Source of the DNA: a bacterium
GTDB lineage: Bacteria; Gemmatimonadota; Gemmatimonadetes; Gemmatimonadales; Gemmatimonadaceae
DNA length: 45,416 nucleotides
Assembly (NCBI GenBank): GCA_027484025.1
Contig: JAIXTI010000211.1
Span: 1-45,416 of the forward strand
Direction: 5' to 3'
The notes under the pieces are model-generated. The model saw only the letters and a program-made list of their open reading frames with translations. It was not told where the DNA came from and ran no database searches. Positions 35,571 through 41,185 of this stretch are shown in pieces; positions within the stretch are counted from its first letter, which is position 1, and the number at the start of each line of letters is the position of its first letter. The position numbers were made by a program, and so were the translations under genes.

Positions 35571-36800
35571 CTATGATAACGTCGCGGCCTGCGCGAGAAG
35601 AAAACTTCGCACCGCGGAATCGTCACTAAGATGGATCGCGCGATCGTACGCGACGCGCGCTTCAGGCGCCCGACCGGCGTGGGCAAGCAGGTGAGCTCGC
35701 ACGGCCCAGTACGGTTGGTAGTCGGCGATGTCGGTATCATGCAGACCGTTGAGCGCCGTAAGGCCGGTGTCCGGTCCGCGGGCTTCACCAAGCGCGGCGG
35801 CCATTCCAACATAGGCGCCGACCGTCGGCGCGATGGCGACCAACGAGCCGTAAAACATCGCCACCGCATCCCAACGCACAGGTGCGCCGAAGAGGCGTTG
35901 CGCATGGACGCTCTGAATCGCTGCCTCGACTTGAAAGCGTCCCGGCGCGGACAACGCACTCGCCGTTCGCAGCGCACGCTCGGCTTCGACAATCATCGGC
36001 TCGGACCAGAGCGACACATCCTGCTTGTCGAGCGGTACGAACGCCCCCGTCGCAGAACGTCGCGCGGCGCGGCGCGATTCGCAAAAGAGCATCAGTGCGA
36101 GCAGGCCGTGTGCCTCGGCATTCTCCGGCATGGTTTCGGCGAGTACCCGGGCGAGCCAAACCGCTTCTTCAGCCACGCCGCGCCGCTTCGCATCGGTGCC
36201 AAATGCGTCATCCCACGCCGTTCCATAGGCCGCGTAGATCGCCTCCATCACCGCTTCAACACGTTCCGGAAGCTCGCGGACCGACGGAATCTCGAACGGC
36301 ACACCGGCAACTCGGATTTTCGTTTTCGCGCGCACGAGACGCTGCGACATCGCCGCCGGCGCGACGAGGAAGGCCCCGGCAATGCGCGCCGCGTCGAGCC
36401 CGAGCACCGTTTGCAGCATGAGGGGCGTGCGGGCGGCCTCGTCGATCGCGGGATGCGCGCAGCAGAAGAGCAATCCGAGTCGCTCGTCGGGAAAGTCGCG
36501 CACGGACTCGGCCGCGCGCTGGGCGTCGAGTGCGGCCAGTTCGAGTGAGGGGAATGCCGCGTCGGCGGTGGCGCGTCGGCGCGTCGCGTCGATCATGCGA
36601 CGGCGCGCCGCCGTGAGAAGCCACGCTTCGGGCTTCTGCGGTACGCCATCGCGCGGCCACTGATCGAGCGCCGCGAGAAAGGCGTCGCCGAGTGCGTCTT
36701 CGGCGGCGGCGAGATCGCGGGAGCGGGCCGCGAGATACGCGATGAGACGTCCGTACGAATTTCGCGCGACCTGCTCGACGGTCTGCTCGGCGTTCGTCAT
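35571..36800 (-). CDS. ECF42-type RNA polymerase sigma factor with long C-terminal extension
   Basis: 409 residues. The N-terminal half has region 2 (YGRLIAYLAARSRDLAAAEDALGDAFLAAL, WLLTAARRRMIDATRR) and region 4 (TPLMLQTVLGLDAARIAGAFLVAPAAMSQRLVRAKTKI). The second half, about 200 residues, is a helical TPR-like extension (DUF6596 type) with VMEAIYAAYGTAWDD and ending ARVAYDRAIHLS, typical of the ECF42 group. These sigma factors lack an anti-sigma factor; the extension controls activity, and they are encoded beside DGPF proteins, as here. The gene follows a DGPF gene after 37 bases on the same strand and is probably cotranscribed from the ECF42-like promoter at 37251-37276. Confidence 0.88.
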   Translation of the reverse strand: MTNAEQTVEQVARNSYGRLIAYLAARSRDLAAAEDALGDAFLAALDQWPRDGVPQKPEAWLLTAARRRMIDATRRRATADAAFPSLELAALDAQRAAESVRDFPDERLGLLFCCAHPAIDEAARTPLMLQTVLGLDAARIAGAFLVAPAAMSQRLVRAKTKIRVAGVPFEIPSVRELPERVEAVMEAIYAAYGTAWDDAFGTDAKRRGVAEEAVWLARVLAETMPENAEAHGLLALMLFCESRRAARRSATGAFVPLDKQDVSLWSEPMIVEAERALRTASALSAPGRFQVEAAIQSVHAQRLFGAPVRWDAVAMFYGSLVAIAPTVGAYVGMAAALGEARGPDTGLTALNGLHDTDIADYQPYWAVRAHLLAHAGRAPEARVAYDRAIHLSDDSAVRSFLLAQAATLS

Positions 36801-36837
36801 GGGGCGACCCGCTCCAGCACGATTCCCAGCCGATGTC

Positions 36838-37191
36838 TTATGACACCGACATAATCGGGCGAATCTCGACGACCGTGCCGGTATCGACGCCCGGAACTTT
36901 CGCCGCCCACTCGAGCACCGGGTCGATGCTCGGCACCTCGAGGATGAAGTAGCCGGCGAGCTGCTCTTTGGCGTCGGCGAACGGACCATCCTGCACGACG
37001 CGCTTGCCGTTCGTGAATCGTAAGGTCGTCGCCGTCGTTTTGTCTTGGAGTGCGTTGCCCTCGACCACCAGCCCGCTCTCGTTAATCGCCTTCGCAAAGG
37101 AAACCCACGCCGCCCAGTATGCGGGCGCGTCGGCTGACTGTCGCTGCGCAATATGGTGCTCGGGCTCGGCGAAAAGCATCATGTACTTCAT
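36838..37191 (-). CDS. DGPF (YCII-related) protein upstream of the sigma factor
   Basis: 117 residues. It begins MKYMMLFAEPEHH and carries VVQDGPFADAKEQLAGYFILE, with the DGPF tetrapeptide that names the group. The fold is the ferredoxin-like YCII/DGPF domain. The biochemical role is unknown; these proteins are the usual targets and neighbours of ECF42 sigma factors. The ATG at 37191 is the family start. The gene is divergent from a second, more distant DGPF protein at 37436, and each is preceded by the same promoter-like motif. Confidence 0.88.
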   Translation of the reverse strand: MKYMMLFAEPEHHIAQRQSADAPAYWAAWVSFAKAINESGLVVEGNALQDKTTATTLRFTNGKRVVQDGPFADAKEQLAGYFILEVPSIDPVLEWAAKVPGVDTGTVVEIRPIMSVS

Positions 37192-37250
37192 GGAAAACCC
37201 CGTGGAAAGAATGTCTGCGGGTTCGGCCCGTTGCCTCACCCGTGACTATA

Positions 37251-37276
37251 TCGGGCGAGGCTTCGCGATTTCGACA
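37251..37276 (-). promoter_or_regulatory. ECF42-like promoter for the DGPF-sigma operon
   Basis: On the minus strand TGTCGAA (37276-37270) is followed, after 16 bases, by CGAT (CGA at 37253-37251). Published ECF42 target promoters have TGTCGA at -35 and CGA/TC at -10. The same arrangement with the same spacing occurs on the plus strand at 37341-37367. The distance to the DGPF start at 37191 is about 60 bases. Confidence 0.7.
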
Positions 37277-37340
37277 CGCGACAGAATATCGGGGTGAGCG
37301 CGGCTCGCGGCGAGGTGATTTTCGCCGAGCGCGACGATTT

Positions 37341-37367
37341 TGTCGAATTCCGCCCTCGGTCGGCGAC
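37341..37367 (+). promoter_or_regulatory. ECF42-like promoter for the second DGPF gene
   Basis: TGTCGAA (37341-37347), 16-base spacer, CGAC (37364-37367): the motif and spacing match the divergent site at 37251-37276 and the ECF42 consensus. The ATG of the gene is about 70 bases downstream. Confidence 0.7.
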
Positions 37368-37435
37368 AACGGTATGTCCAACGTCCGCACTCCGTGGACC
37401 GGACGCCGTCCTATCCCAATTCGAGGAGTCCCGCC

Positions 37436-37810
37436 ATGAAATTCGTGTGCCTCATCTACCATGAAGAGACCAGGCTCGCGACGATGTCCGCAGAGGAGTT
37501 TGGTGCCTTGCGGGGCAGTTACGTCGCGTTCACGCAGTCCATCATCGATGGCGGGCAGCTCATCGCGGGCGAGGCGCTGCAGCCGACGCACACCGCCACG
37601 TCGGTGCGTGTTCGCCACGGCCAGCTGACGACGACCGATGGCCCATTCGTCGAGACCCGTGAGCAGGTGGGCGGCTTCTTCCTGATCGAGGCGCGCGACC
37701 TGAACGAGGCCATCCAGATCGCGGCGCGCATCCCGGACGCGAGCACGGGGGGCATCGAGGTACGCCCGGTGGTGGAGTTCAGCCCGCCCGGCACGAATGC
37801 GGTCGATTAA
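37436..37810 (+). CDS. Second DGPF (YCII-related) protein
   Basis: 124 residues, starting MKFVCLIYHEETRLATMS with GAGGAG eight bases upstream of the ATG. The motif TTTDGPFVETREQVGGFFLIEA is the DGPF centre, followed by AIQIAARIPDASTGGIEVRP. It is a paralogue of the minus-strand DGPF protein and probably forms dimers with the same ferredoxin-like fold. Function is unknown. It is transcribed away from the sigma factor from its own ECF42-like promoter. Its stop is 41 bases before the tRNA-Gln-derived direct repeat, so it marks the chromosome side of the putative insertion. Confidence 0.88.
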   Translation: MKFVCLIYHEETRLATMSAEEFGALRGSYVAFTQSIIDGGQLIAGEALQPTHTATSVRVRHGQLTTTDGPFVETREQVGGFFLIEARDLNEAIQIAARIPDASTGGIEVRPVVEFSPPGTNAVD

Positions 37811-37851
37811 GGCGCGACCTGAAGGCCCGGTTGGCGGGTATTTCCTGCAAA

Positions 37852-37924
37852 ACACAAACGCCGCCGTCACTCGTAAGTGACGGCGGTGCTTGCAGTTACT
37901 GATATATTGCCCCTCCTGGGGTCG
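37852..37924. repeat. Direct repeat copy 1: displaced tRNA-Gln 3' end with terminator (att-like)
   Basis: 73 bases matching 39268-39340 with three substitutions and no gaps; the offset is 1416. Its right end (37908-37924, TGCCCCTCCTGGGGTCG) is the last 17 bases of tRNA-Gln (acceptor arm and part of the T arm) and then breaks off into unrelated sequence. Its left part holds the hairpin CCGCCGTCACT-CGTA-AGTGACGGCGG (37861-37886), the tRNA terminator. The copy is located after the nucleotidyltransferase stop. This is the pattern left when an element inserts at the 3' end of a tRNA gene. Confidence 0.85.
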
Positions 37925-37934
37925 TCGACAACGA

Positions 37935-38639
37935 TTAGAGCGCGAGCCTCGCGATTCTTTCGCGAATACCCACGAGCACGTTTGGCAACCGCTGCGCATC
38001 CGGGAACGTGCCTTCGAGTACGTCGTCGAACCACGGTTCCGCCAGCAGCTTCTGGACGGATTCGGCAATGAAGGTGCACACGTCCACCGACAGCGACTGG
38101 AACTCGTGCGCGAGTTCGGGGCGACCGGCAACGAGCATCAGGATATCCTCAAGATCGTGACTCCCGAACGGATCGTTGCTACCACGGTCGAAGAACGCCT
38201 CCCACTTCGTCGCGAGCAACGCCGCCGGGTGCGAGGCCCGAATCACAACGCCAGCGGCCAGCTCCACTGAAACGGCGGTGTCCATGATCAGGGGATACCA
38301 TTGGTTGCTGAATCCGAGGATCTCAGCGTCGAGTGGCATGGCGTCGAGCACCACCCCATCGGTGGTGCGATATCGGCACACCGGTGCGCCGGGCGATTGA
38401 TCCACACGAAATCCGACCGCCTGCAGTCGCCGTGCGAACTCGTGGTACGCATGTCTGGTGCGGCACGCAACAACGACATCTACGTCGTCGGTGGGCCGCA
38501 GGCGATGGAGGCCGCGGTCGGTGATGAAGAACGGCACCATCTGTCCGCCGATAAAGACGACCTCGTGTACGAGATCGCCCAGCGCGACGGCCGTACGTCG
38601 AACCTGCTGCGCGTTGGGATGATCGAGGTGGACGATCAT
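37935..38639 (-). CDS. Nucleotidyltransferase resembling AbiEii-type toxins
   Basis: 234 residues. The polymerase-beta-like nucleotidyltransferase core is seen: FIGGQMV with Gly31-Gly32, TDDVD with Asp52 and Asp54 as metal ligands, and a third Asp at about 99 (VVLDAM). The following ATKWEAFFDRG and GSHDLEDI resemble the conserved Lys and Asp segment of the AbiEii/DUF1814 group. Such toxins add nucleotides to RNA acceptors such as tRNA or act as GTP-dependent transferases; here the target is unknown. The start overlaps the stop of the upstream regulator by four bases (ATGA). It is the second gene of the tRNA-Gln island and ends 10 bases before the displaced tRNA tail. An alternative is a metabolic transferase of the same superfamily. 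Confidence 0.72.
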   Translation of the reverse strand: MIVHLDHPNAQQVRRTAVALGDLVHEVVFIGGQMVPFFITDRGLHRLRPTDDVDVVVACRTRHAYHEFARRLQAVGFRVDQSPGAPVCRYRTTDGVVLDAMPLDAEILGFSNQWYPLIMDTAVSVELAAGVVIRASHPAALLATKWEAFFDRGSNDPFGSHDLEDILMLVAGRPELAHEFQSLSVDVCTFIAESVQKLLAEPWFDDVLEGTFPDAQRLPNVLVGIRERIARLAL

Positions 38640-39139
38640 GCCGCTGCGCCGAGCCGCTGCCGGAGATAGTCACGGGCGCGCTGTCGTTCGCGCGCGCGTC
38701 CGGCGCGTAGTGCGTCTACCAGTGCAAGGAGCTCGTAGAGCGCCGGATTGGTCGTCGCGGTGTGCACGGCTCCTGCATACAGGGGCTCAAGCGATTCACC
38801 GCGAACGAGCCCCTCGGCTGAGGGCCAGACGTAGGCGCCGGCCCCGGTGAAACTGACGGCCAGCGGTGGCGCGGCGTGTGCCGTGGGCACACCACGCACC
38901 TCGGCGCCTGGTGTGACTGCAAACACATAGGGGACGCCACCGAGCAGGAATTCGAGGAGCGCCTCCGGCTTCACCGTCCGCGAGCCCACACGAAGCAGCC
39001 GCGCGGCCTGCAGACGCCGCACCGCGTTGTGCGCCTCGCCATGCGAGATGCCCACGGCCCCAGCCAATTCTCGGTAGGGCGCATCGGGCGTGAGCGACAG
39101 TTGGAGGGCAACGGCGACATCAGCGGGCTTGAGCGGCAG
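38636..39139 (-). CDS. Winged-helix regulator, probable antitoxin of the AbiE-like pair (CTG start)
   Basis: About 167 residues. An HTH is clear: PLKPADVAVALQLSL, YRELAGAVGISHGEAHNAVRRLQAARLL, then VGSRTV. The C-terminal part (FLLGGVPYVFAVTPG, YELLALVDALR) is unlike common regulators. In this frame there is no ATG, GTG or TTG between the upstream TGA and a TTG at 39067 that would cut through the HTH. The frame is clearly coding above it. CTG at 39139 has GGAG six bases upstream and gives (M)PLKPADV, so I use it; CTG at 39157 is possible. The gene precedes and overlaps the nucleotidyltransferase, the order of AbiEi-AbiEii operons. It probably represses its own promoter through the palindrome just upstream. 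Confidence 0.65.
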   Translation of the reverse strand: MPLKPADVAVALQLSLTPDAPYRELAGAVGISHGEAHNAVRRLQAARLLRVGSRTVKPEALLEFLLGGVPYVFAVTPGAEVRGVPTAHAAPPLAVSFTGAGAYVWPSAEGLVRGESLEPLYAGAVHTATTNPALYELLALVDALRAGRARERQRARDYLRQRLGAAA

Positions 39140-39150
39140 AGCAGGCTCCG

Positions 39151-39176
39151 TGTCCAGTGTTCATGAACTATGGACA
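39151..39176. promoter_or_regulatory. 26-bp palindromic operator of the AbiE-like operon
   Basis: TGTCCA-GT-GTTCATGAAC-TA-TGGACA: apart from two mismatched dinucleotides the 26 bases are a perfect palindrome centred on TCATGA. It overlaps the -10 and the predicted transcription start. An autoregulatory operator is known for AbiEi antitoxins, which bind inverted repeats at their promoter. Confidence 0.7.
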
Positions 39177-39195
39177 CAATCGAACGAGCCGTCAA
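39167..39195 (-). promoter_or_regulatory. Promoter of the AbiE-like operon
   Basis: On the minus strand TTGACG (39195-39190), a 17-base spacer and CATAGT (39172-39167) form a good sigma-70-type match. Transcription would start near 39160, about 20 bases before the CTG start codon and inside the palindrome. Confidence 0.5.
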
Positions 39196-39267
39196 GTATT
39201 CCAGTCTGGTGGCATGCCAAACAGACCGTCCGAGCGAACCAGGAATCGCACCACCTTACCCCGGAAC

Positions 39268-39340
39268 ACACAAACGCCGCCATCACTCGTAAGTGACGGC
39301 GGCGCTTGCAGTTACTGATGTATTGCCCCTCCTGGGGTCG
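39268..39340. repeat. Direct repeat copy 2: tRNA-Gln 3' end with terminator
   Basis: Matches 37852-37924 at 70 of 73 positions. Here the repeat continues into the intact tRNA-Gln. The hairpin (CCGCCATCACT, CGTA, AGTGACGGCGG at 39277-39302) has one A/C mismatch compared with copy 1. On the minus strand it is followed by GTTTGTGTGTT, so it is the natural terminator of tRNA-Gln. Confidence 0.85.
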
Positions 39341-39395
39341 AACCAGGAACCTTCTGATCCAGAGTCAGACGCTCTGCCAGTTGAGCTAAGGGGCA
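39323..39395 (-). tRNA. tRNA-Gln (anticodon CUG)
   Basis: On the minus strand the acceptor arms TGCCCCT and AGGGGCA pair over seven bases, with A as discriminator. The D-arm region TAGCTCAACTGGCAGAG, the anticodon arm TCTGA-CTCTGGA-TCAGA and the T arm CCTGG-TTCGACC-CCAGG fold normally. Loop CTCTGGA gives anticodon CTG, reading CAG glutamine codons. CCA is not encoded. The gene lies about 100 bases downstream of glnS on the same strand, with its own candidate -10 (TATATT at 39437-39432, minus strand). Its 3' end is the core of a 73-bp direct repeat. Confidence 0.95.
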
Positions 39396-39493
39396 GCTGG
39401 CACACCGGGGCAGAACCCCGCTGAGCCGTCAAATATAGGGATCCGAGCCCGCGACGGTAGGGGGGACGCCGAGAATCTGACGCCCCGCTCCGC

Positions 39494-41185
39494 TTACCCC
39501 TTCTTCACTTCCTTCGCCCAGCTGTCCCGCAGCCCCACAATCCGGTTGAACACCAGCTTCTCCGGTGTGCTGCTCTCCGGCTCACTCATGAAATAGCCCG
39601 TGCGCTCGAACTGATAGCGCGACCCAATGGGATCGCTCGCCACACTCGGTTCGATCTTGGCGTCGGGAATGACCACCAGCGACGCCGGGTTGAGCGCGCT
39701 CAGAAAGTCCTGCCCCTCAGGCACATCATCGGGATCGGGCTGCGAGAACAACCGGTCGTACAACCGCACTTCGCACGACACCGCCTGCGCCGCACTCACC
39801 CAGTGAATGGTGCCCTGCACCTTGCGGCCGTCGGGCGCCTGCCCGCTGCGCGTATCCGGGTCGTAGGTGCAGCGCAACTCGATCACTTCGCCCGCGTCGT
39901 TCTTCACGACCTCGTTGCACGTGATGAGATAGCCAAAGCGCAACCGCACTTCGCGGCCCACCGACAACCGATAGAACTTCTTGGGGGCGTCTTCCATGAA
40001 GTCGTCGCGATCGACGTACAACTCACGCGAGAACGGCATGGGCCGCGAGCCCGTCTTGGGCACATCGTGCGGATAGCTCGGCGCATCGAGCATCTCCACC
40101 TGTCCTTCGGGATAGTTGGTGAGCACGACCTTGAGTGGGTTGAGCACACACAACACGCGCGGCACTTCCATGTTCAAGTCGTTGCGCACCGCATGCTCGA
40201 ACGTCGCGATCTCCACCCGCGCATCCTTGCGCGCGACGCCAATGACTTCGGCGAACGCGCGAATGGCCTCGGGGCGCACGCCACGACGACGCAGCCCCGC
40301 AATGGTAGGCATGCGGGGATCGTCCCAGCCGTTCACGTGACCATCGTTCACGAGACGTAGTAGCTTGCGCTTGCTGAGCACCGTGTAATCGAGTTCGAGA
40401 CGCGCGAACTCGATTTGCGTGGGCGGATTCACGAAACCCGCTTCGGCCACGAGCCAATCGTAAATCTCGCGCGCATCCTTGAACTCGAGCGTGCACAACG
40501 AGCGCGTGATGCCTTCAATGGCGTCGCTGAGGCCGTGCGCAAAGTCGTAGAGCGGGTAGATGCACCAGTCGTTGCCGCGCCGGTAATGATGCGCATGCCG
40601 AATGCGCAGCAGCAGCGGATCACGCATGACCATGTTGGGATGCGCCATGTCGATCTTGGCGCGCAACACCTTCGCCCCGTCAGGGAACTCACCGGCCTTC
40701 ATGCGACGCAGCAGATCGAGATTCTCGTCCGCACTGCGCTCACGCCACGGACTCGGCGTACCGGCGCTCGTGACGGTACCGCGATTCGTGCGGATCTGCT
40801 CTTCGTTCTGGTCGTCGACGTACGCCTTGCCCTTGAGCACCAGCGCTTCGGCGATGTCGTAGAGCTTCTCGAAGTAGTCGGACGCATAGTAGAGTCCGTC
40901 CCAGTTGAAGCCCAGCCACTGCACGTCGCGCTGAATCGCCTCCACGTACTTCACATCTTCCGTGGCGGGGTTGGTGTCGTCGAAGCGCAGGTTGCAGGTG
41001 CCCCCGAACTCCTGCGCGATGCCGAAGTTGAGACAGATGGACTTGGCGTGCCCCATGTGCAGAAAGCCGTTGGGCTCAGGGGGGAAGCGCGTCGCCGGCC
41101 CACGGCCAAACCGGCCGGTTGCCACATCGTCGGCGACCATCTCACGGATGAAGTCGCGACGCGGAGCCGCAGTATTTTCGGACAT
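39494..41185 (-). CDS. glnS: Glutaminyl-tRNA synthetase
   Basis: 563 residues. It is a class I synthetase: the HIGH motif is HMGH at residues 43-46 within PPEPNGFLHMGHAKS, the KMSKS-type motif is VLSKRK, and TRFPPEPNG and NLRFDDTNP are characteristic of GlnRS. The C-terminal anticodon-binding beta-barrels are present (FYRLSVGREVRLRFGYLI, YFMSEPESS). It charges tRNA-Gln directly with glutamine in the cytosol. ATG at 41185 (MSENTAAPRRDF) is chosen; a GTG at 41200 adds five residues. tRNA-Gln(CUG) lies directly downstream on the same strand, an economical pairing of enzyme and substrate. Confidence 0.94.
   Translation of the reverse strand: MSENTAAPRRDFIREMVADDVATGRFGRGPATRFPPEPNGFLHMGHAKSICLNFGIAQEFGGTCNLRFDDTNPATEDVKYVEAIQRDVQWLGFNWDGLYYASDYFEKLYDIAEALVLKGKAYVDDQNEEQIRTNRGTVTSAGTPSPWRERSADENLDLLRRMKAGEFPDGAKVLRAKIDMAHPNMVMRDPLLLRIRHAHHYRRGNDWCIYPLYDFAHGLSDAIEGITRSLCTLEFKDAREIYDWLVAEAGFVNPPTQIEFARLELDYTVLSKRKLLRLVNDGHVNGWDDPRMPTIAGLRRRGVRPEAIRAFAEVIGVARKDARVEIATFEHAVRNDLNMEVPRVLCVLNPLKVVLTNYPEGQVEMLDAPSYPHDVPKTGSRPMPFSRELYVDRDDFMEDAPKKFYRLSVGREVRLRFGYLITCNEVVKNDAGEVIELRCTYDPDTRSGQAPDGRKVQGTIHWVSAAQAVSCEVRLYDRLFSQPDPDDVPEGQDFLSALNPASLVVIPDAKIEPSVASDPIGSRYQFERTGYFMSEPESSTPEKLVFNRIVGLRDSWAKEVKKG

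Follow-up and report, generated by a model that had tools for sequence, protein, structure and literature searches.

The question raised by this locus is how a two-gene module comes to lie between direct repeats at a tRNA-Gln gene when the unit that carries it has no recombinase. The window, the whole stretch of 45,416 nucleotides that was analysed, is a contig from a bacterium of the Gemmatimonadaceae (JAIXTI010000211.1, assembly GCA_027484025.1). Comparison with relatives argues that the unit is very probably a decayed, integrase-less insertion into the anticodon loop of a tRNA-Gln (CTG) gene, with AbiE-type cargo, and that it belongs to tandem arrays found in part of the genus.

The elements that bound the unit are as follows.

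37844..37924, no strand assigned: distal displaced copy, cut off in the T loop, with 18 tRNA bases against 44 in the units of relatives
39260..39340, no strand assigned: proximal copy, consisting of a terminator hairpin and the tRNA 3' end
39323..39395, minus strand: tRNA-Gln (CTG), the integration target, called by ARAGORN; anticodon-loop boundary after 39366, placed from the displaced copies of relatives

The preliminary description of this DNA reported a 73-bp repeat containing the last 17 bases of the tRNA. The repeat itself stands, 37852-37924 and 39268-39340 being identical at 70 of 73 positions without gaps and 1416 bp apart; the tRNA share has to be corrected, since the ARAGORN coordinates put 18 tRNA bases inside the repeat. 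The match can be extended to 37844-37924 and 39260-39340 (75 of 81 identical, at the same spacing). Because the 81-nt repeat matches exactly two places in the whole assembly (4.74 Mb, 93% complete; E 2.2e-36 and 2.9e-28), the pair is taken as non-chance. The hairpins of the distal and proximal copies are both strong (-31.3 and -34.3 kcal/mol; z -6.8 and -6.1, respectively); the terminator scan calls the distal copy (11 pairs), and the proximal copy, whose T tail is interrupted, is absent from its output. A short tRNA-like piece, GATTCCTGGTTCG, lies close to the right end of the unit. A viral origin was considered and rejected, the exact pattern GAACCAGGAACCTTCTGATCCAGAGTCG matching 0 times in viral_contigs.

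Between the repeats there is space for a wHTH (winged-helix) regulator gene and a nucleotidyltransferase (NTase) gene alone, in agreement with the preliminary description, which had also noted the missing recombinase: in a profile search of the genome, no PF00589 match falls on the contig of the window, and the five matches in the genome, one of them below cut-off, are all on other contigs. The genes and their putative control site are as follows.

38636..39157, minus strand: wHTH regulator, putative antitoxin (PDC-M21A; PADLOC, 1.6e-33; sub-threshold HTH matches); start uncertain, probably CTG
37935..38639, minus strand: nucleotidyltransferase, putative toxin (PDC-M21B, AbiEii/MenT-like; PADLOC, 1.4e-51; invariant motifs; MenT1 fold)
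39150..39195, minus strand: promoter-like site (-35 TTGACG) with an overlapping palindrome, a putative operator, the palindrome being conserved with few changes among seven aligned sequences

A CTG start for the regulator would be unusual; at the corresponding position the window, G009 and G006 have CTG, G026 and G003 have GTG, and G016 and G005 have ATG-GTG (G numbers denote genomes). NTase residues G31, G32, R48, D52, D54, K145, A148, F149, R152, D162, and D165 are invariant in 29 aligned sequences, hand-picked from at least 120 relatives. Motifs I-IV of AbiEii, as set out in PMC3985639, are all matched (hGG..R-x3-DhD, K-x2-A-aromatic-x2-R, and DxxD), the spacing from GG to DhD being 19 residues in this NTase versus 15 in AbiEii. 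The Pfam AbiEii profile PF08843 scores below threshold on the window NTase (14.7 versus a cut-off of 22.5 bits) and is carried by 11 of the 120 relatives listed. MenT1, of the MenAT1 system (PDB 8an4/8an5), is the best solved-structure match of the NTase profile (8an4, E 2.8e-5) and also the best Foldseek match of the AlphaFold2 model (pLDDT 92.8; E 4e-7, TM 0.50/0.62, rmsd 10.6). The gene layout resembles that of the AbiE type IV toxin-antitoxin system as described in PMC3985639: wHTH gene upstream, NTase gene overlapping it by 4 nt in a bicistronic arrangement, and inverted repeats at the promoter, present here as the putative operator. From the NTase motifs, the MenT1 fold, and the conserved promoter palindrome, the two genes are therefore probably an AbiE-like toxin-antitoxin pair, for which autoregulation is expected. 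A phage-defence role is a candidate one by label, PDC standing for phage defence candidate (PMC11514479).

The window unit is not an isolated case. Matches to the 81-nt query occur in 14 of 61 genomes, all of the same genus as the window, several having multiple copies 1-5 kb apart. GlnRS was located in 28 of 30 same-genus genomes and the adjoining tRNA-Gln side was taken where assembled, several contigs breaking there. Displaced copies at the tRNA-Gln (CTG) site are present in 12 of the 30, with one to seven copies each. In a search with a degenerate 44-nt pattern, eight genomes have displaced copies at three mismatches or fewer (G028, G021, G005, G013, G006, G019, G026, and G009), G006 being the richest with seven; divergent or truncated copies occur in G016, G010, G011, and the window. 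The second pattern match of G010 is, judged from its flanks, the first tRNA seen again where two contig ends overlap; single matches alone are found, for example, in the complete genomes G020 and G029, and three genomes without a match in the pattern search (G007, G014, and G027) are counted neither way. The window unit is thus one unit of an array that occurs in part of the genus.

Core-to-core distances within one contig, from positions entered by hand and with the outermost one of G005 an estimate, are 735, 878, 1416, 1522, 1550, 1577, 1657, 1700, 1809, 1846, 2100, 2108, 2479, 2669, 3752, 4225, 4264, 4399, 5528, and 36,447 bp. The copies therefore delimit units stacked in tandem that measure 0.7-5.5 kb and a single one of 36 kb with a 499-aa tyrosine integrase; units of 0.7-2.1 kb in several species are without PF00589 matches. 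Contigs C7 and C46 of G006 share an overlap of about 834 bp (99%), which links six units in a row, the PDC-M21 unit lying within this chain and the tRNA-Gln itself apart on C10. The units carry, by gene calls from our own codon-score caller rather than a standard program, a divergent second pair of wHTH and NTase genes, a wHTH gene with a DUF6036 nucleotidyltransferase, MarR, MerR, BlaI/M56, DUF4160, DUF2442, a MerB-like protein, an alpha/beta hydrolase, and a weakly TsiV/PDC-M20B-like protein. Two displaced copies (G019:C122:9795-9838 and G005:C18:109416-109459) have a tRNA allele unlike that of their host and nearer that of other species, so insertions may swap tRNA 3' halves between species.

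The crossover position can be read from the displaced copies, which typically consist of the tRNA 3' half and the terminator. The census comprises 48 copies from 30 oriented loci (25 displaced and 23 at tRNAs, with three contig-edge tRNA copies, L093-L095, left aside). Seventeen of the 25 displaced copies end exactly in the anticodon loop, at GATCCAGAGTC: they run TTGCCCC...GATCCAGAGTC and diverge there or within three bases beyond, the intact tRNA continuing AGACGC. Six have drifted at the boundary (G028, G016 twice, G011, G026, and G010), and two are truncated, one in the window and one in G021. The boundary falls in the anticodon stem-loop, a 7-base loop flanked by TCTGA and TCAGA; the anticodon loop is among the tRNA subsites that Islander lists (PMC4383910, subsite listing). 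The proposed insertion at tRNA-Gln is supported, with the crossover in the anticodon loop and not near the tRNA end.

The distal copy of the window ends inside the T loop, short of the anticodon loop. A comparison with the units of G005, G016, G026, and G013 shows what is missing in the window: the remaining tRNA half, the core, and about 150 bp ahead of the NTase stop, in all about 175 bp; the distal core and left arm that are absent here are present in those four (the core having drifted in G016). A separate class of T-loop crossover would fit a tRNA subsite, but the relatives' versions of the unit extend to the anticodon loop, and for this reason a deletion is preferred for the window. Because of the truncation the unit is probably immobile now. 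The last bases of the copies in both the window (37907-37924) and G021:C30 (L069 8172-8189) are GGGGTCG in the T loop, with different sequence onward; this common stop may be chance or a second crossover point.

A precise empty site is available for another element. In G009, a near relative (GlnRS 94.1% identical at the DNA level), this regulator gene and this repeat are also present, but 36,447 bp separate them from the tRNA. Window positions 38584-39366 match G009 at 92% identity up to the anticodon boundary, where the match stops, and the window is therefore the precise empty state of the 36-kb region. Int499, a tyrosine integrase of 499 aa, adjoins tRNA-Gln in G009, as does a 497-aa one in G006; both match PF00589. 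None of the loci fetched showed the corresponding empty site for the window's own unit, in which the tRNA and a single repeat would be followed by the YCII gene.

Many of the small units have end motifs in common with the elements that bear an integrase.

39235..39246, plus strand: end motif CGAACCAGGAAT, a right-end arm-like box, found at the corresponding distance from the terminator in 25 of 48 copies

At two mismatches or fewer, GGAACYRGGAAT precedes the terminator in 25 of the 48 copies (13 of the 25 displaced ones and 12 of the 23 at tRNAs), mostly at offsets of -73 to -77 or -86 to -90, and is absent from the other 23; our own 2-mer shuffles, which are not dinucleotide-exact, give 0.74 on average (maximum 3 of 300). 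Beyond the core, the 25 displaced copies contain 43 GCCAA/TTGGC boxes versus 7.8 in such shuffles (maximum 17 of 500), with offsets of 40 in eight copies, 50 in five, and 61 in seven. A spacing of about one helical turn, as between these offsets, resembles that of integrase arm sites. The right-end motif is found at integrase-bearing tRNA ends once in G009 and twice in G006.

An Int499-type integrase is intact in 2 of the 30 same-genus genomes; fragments occur in G006, inside its 4225-bp unit and beyond the outermost C46 copy, which indicates that large elements decay there. No Int499 homologue was found in the genome of the window. Across the order, 41 of 151 genomes have homologues, and the best six loci all adjoin tRNA genes. 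One of another family (G141) encodes a 36% homologue adjoining tRNA-Gln (CTG) in the same convergent layout, with no displaced tRNA-Gln copy in the 19.5 kb fetched at this locus. In G021 a different integrase and a phage-like neighbour gene lie next to a displaced copy. At another chromosomal site in G020 (L113 1057-3243), RmuC-like and sigma-like genes resembling, by eye, those of Int499 elements lie beside a further regulator copy.

The PDC-M21 genes are not present in all relatives. Had all relatives carried both genes and both repeats, insertion would have been in question; regulator matches of at least 86% occur in 8 of 30 genomes, that of G014 being a contig-edge fragment only, and relics are seen in G003 (a 53-aa remnant) and G028 (a divergent fragment). 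G009 has no NTase, and that of G016 has a broken frame; not every genome, then, keeps both genes. Apart from the window, only G005 and G016 have the unit with tRNA halves at both ends; that of G013 runs into a contig end, and that of G026 has a tRNA-side terminator without the tRNA half. A separate, widespread regulator paralogue (42-48%) has a conserved neighbourhood in six of seven loci fetched (L112, L114-L118), where a neighbour is presumably argJ-like, and the NTase partner is absent from all seven.

The PDC-M21 and GlnRS trees agree in placing G005 and G016 as sisters. Constraining G005, G016, and G013 as in GlnRS gives AU-test p values of 0.098 (joint), 0.048 (NTase), and 0.051 (regulator), and constraining G000 and G006 for the NTase gives 0.16. 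Similarity is mosaic along the unit: at the NTase end, identity of the window is 88-91% with G005 and 77-82% with G006, its near relative. Pairwise identities hint at horizontal transfer of the unit; it is not claimed here because the trees do not firmly reject vertical descent.

In the mechanism that we propose, the tyrosine integrase of another element, presumably of the Int499 type, would recombine the element core with the tRNA. The tRNA gene would be rebuilt with the 3' half and terminator that the element brings, while the former 3' half and terminator would be displaced to the far side as the distal repeat, and successive rounds of insertion in the genus would yield tandem arrays. The window would since have lost the distal core and left arm through a deletion of about 175 bp, probably leaving the unit stuck. 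The wHTH protein would repress its own promoter and neutralise the nucleotidyltransferase toxin, and the displaced terminator would close the toxin-antitoxin operon.

How the small units arose can be read in more than one way. A tandem tRNA-Gln duplication, with the second repeat as its relic, would account for the tRNA tail and the terminator both lying in the repeat, and the preliminary description had named an ancient duplication of this kind as the case against insertion; it is highly improbable and is set aside, because the displaced copies are 3' halves that diverge past the anticodon loop and ARAGORN calls at most one tRNA-Gln in each locus fetched, the array loci included. The two origins first suggested for the unit, a satellite mobilised in trans and the residue of a larger element, draw on different evidence: shared end motifs favour the satellite, and integrase fragments together with vertical descent that is not rejected favour the residue. 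We regard it as somewhat on the probable side that the unit is such a residue, reduced to an addiction-like module and then inherited vertically, with newer elements on the tRNA side. The truncated distal end, the integrase remnants within G006 units, and the sister placement of G005 and G016 in both trees are consistent with this, and tandem accretion onto decayed elements is described in PMC5704250; against it stand the compact PDC-M21 units with a distal core in G005, G016, G026, and G013, which bear no trace of a larger element, the mosaic similarity to G005 and G006, and the one AU test marginally below 0.05.

That the small units are true miniature elements, i.e., non-autonomous cassettes with matched ends, moved in trans by Int499-bearing elements into an insulated one-operon array, is a tentative alternative. 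The PF00589-free units of 0.7-2.1 kb in several species, the fixed-distance end motifs held in common with integrase-bearing units, and the variety of cargo within one frame all point that way, but the helper integrase is in only two of 30 genomes, the fragments in G006 suggest decay of large elements, the trees do not firmly show horizontal movement, and no excised form was observed. Speculative, too, is a tRNA-anchored cassette system in this genus, in which miniature integrase-less one-operon units with a host-derived terminator and matched arm motifs would be gathered in the tRNA-Gln anticodon loop by integrases acting in trans; defence and stress cargo would thereby be arrayed much as in an integron, without there being one.

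The preferred reading, a decayed integrase-less insertion within a tandem array, has precedents in kind. CIMEs, in the account of PMC5704250 (citing Pavlovic 2004), have lost their integration genes, are bounded by att sites, and form tandem stacks with more recent elements where a target gene ends. The units described here are likewise att-bounded and stacked at a target gene; unlike CIMEs they measure 0.7-5.5 kb and hold one operon or a few genes. The window unit has no integration or transfer genes, as expected of a CIME, and does not keep both attL and attR, its distal core and arm being missing. As in the tDNA islands of Islander (PMC4383910), there is a regenerated tRNA gene with a displaced 3' fragment in direct orientation, here truncated to 18 nt; the integrase gene of its own that marks islands of the tyrosine-integrase type is lacking. 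Islander, by its stated rules, requires an integrase for each island, discards candidates below 2 kb, and records four tandems of three or more (PMC4383910); runs of at least three consecutive units, mostly integrase-less, occur here in G028 and G006, the counts not being like for like. The ssrA islands of Dehalococcoides also stand several in tandem at one RNA gene with direct repeats of its 3' end, 15 of them without an integration module, but the account in PMC3146451 involves a serine recombinase, the T loop of tmRNA, and other cargo, in contrast to the present case, with its nearby tyrosine integrase and insertion in the tRNA-Gln anticodon loop. Accretion in tandem at a tRNA gene is thus already known in kind, and it is the small size, the number, and the shared ends of the units that are unusual; among top-ranked titles on tandem and tRNA islands, Gemmatimonas islands, AbiE, and PDC-M21, none describes the tRNA-Gln array reported here.

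To the left of the distal repeat (window 35571-37810) lie a sigma-factor-like gene and two YCII-domain genes, as in G021:C30. G029 has the sigma gene in copy, with one YCII gene, at another place, so this block may itself be cargo. Many of the relatives examined have a gene of about 190-220 aa, which we take to be Uma2-like, between tRNA-Gln and glnS; it is absent from the window (39395-39494).

A terminator comes with every insertion, so the cargo arrives transcriptionally closed, and each insertion swaps the 3' half of the tRNA gene. If the small units move, a tRNA-targeting element would need as little as one operon, a core, and two ends, and a single site in a natural system would bring together helpers, satellites, and the products of decay. 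If the units are immobile, the array would be a legible record of past insertions and of the cargo that survives decay, AbiE-like pairs included.
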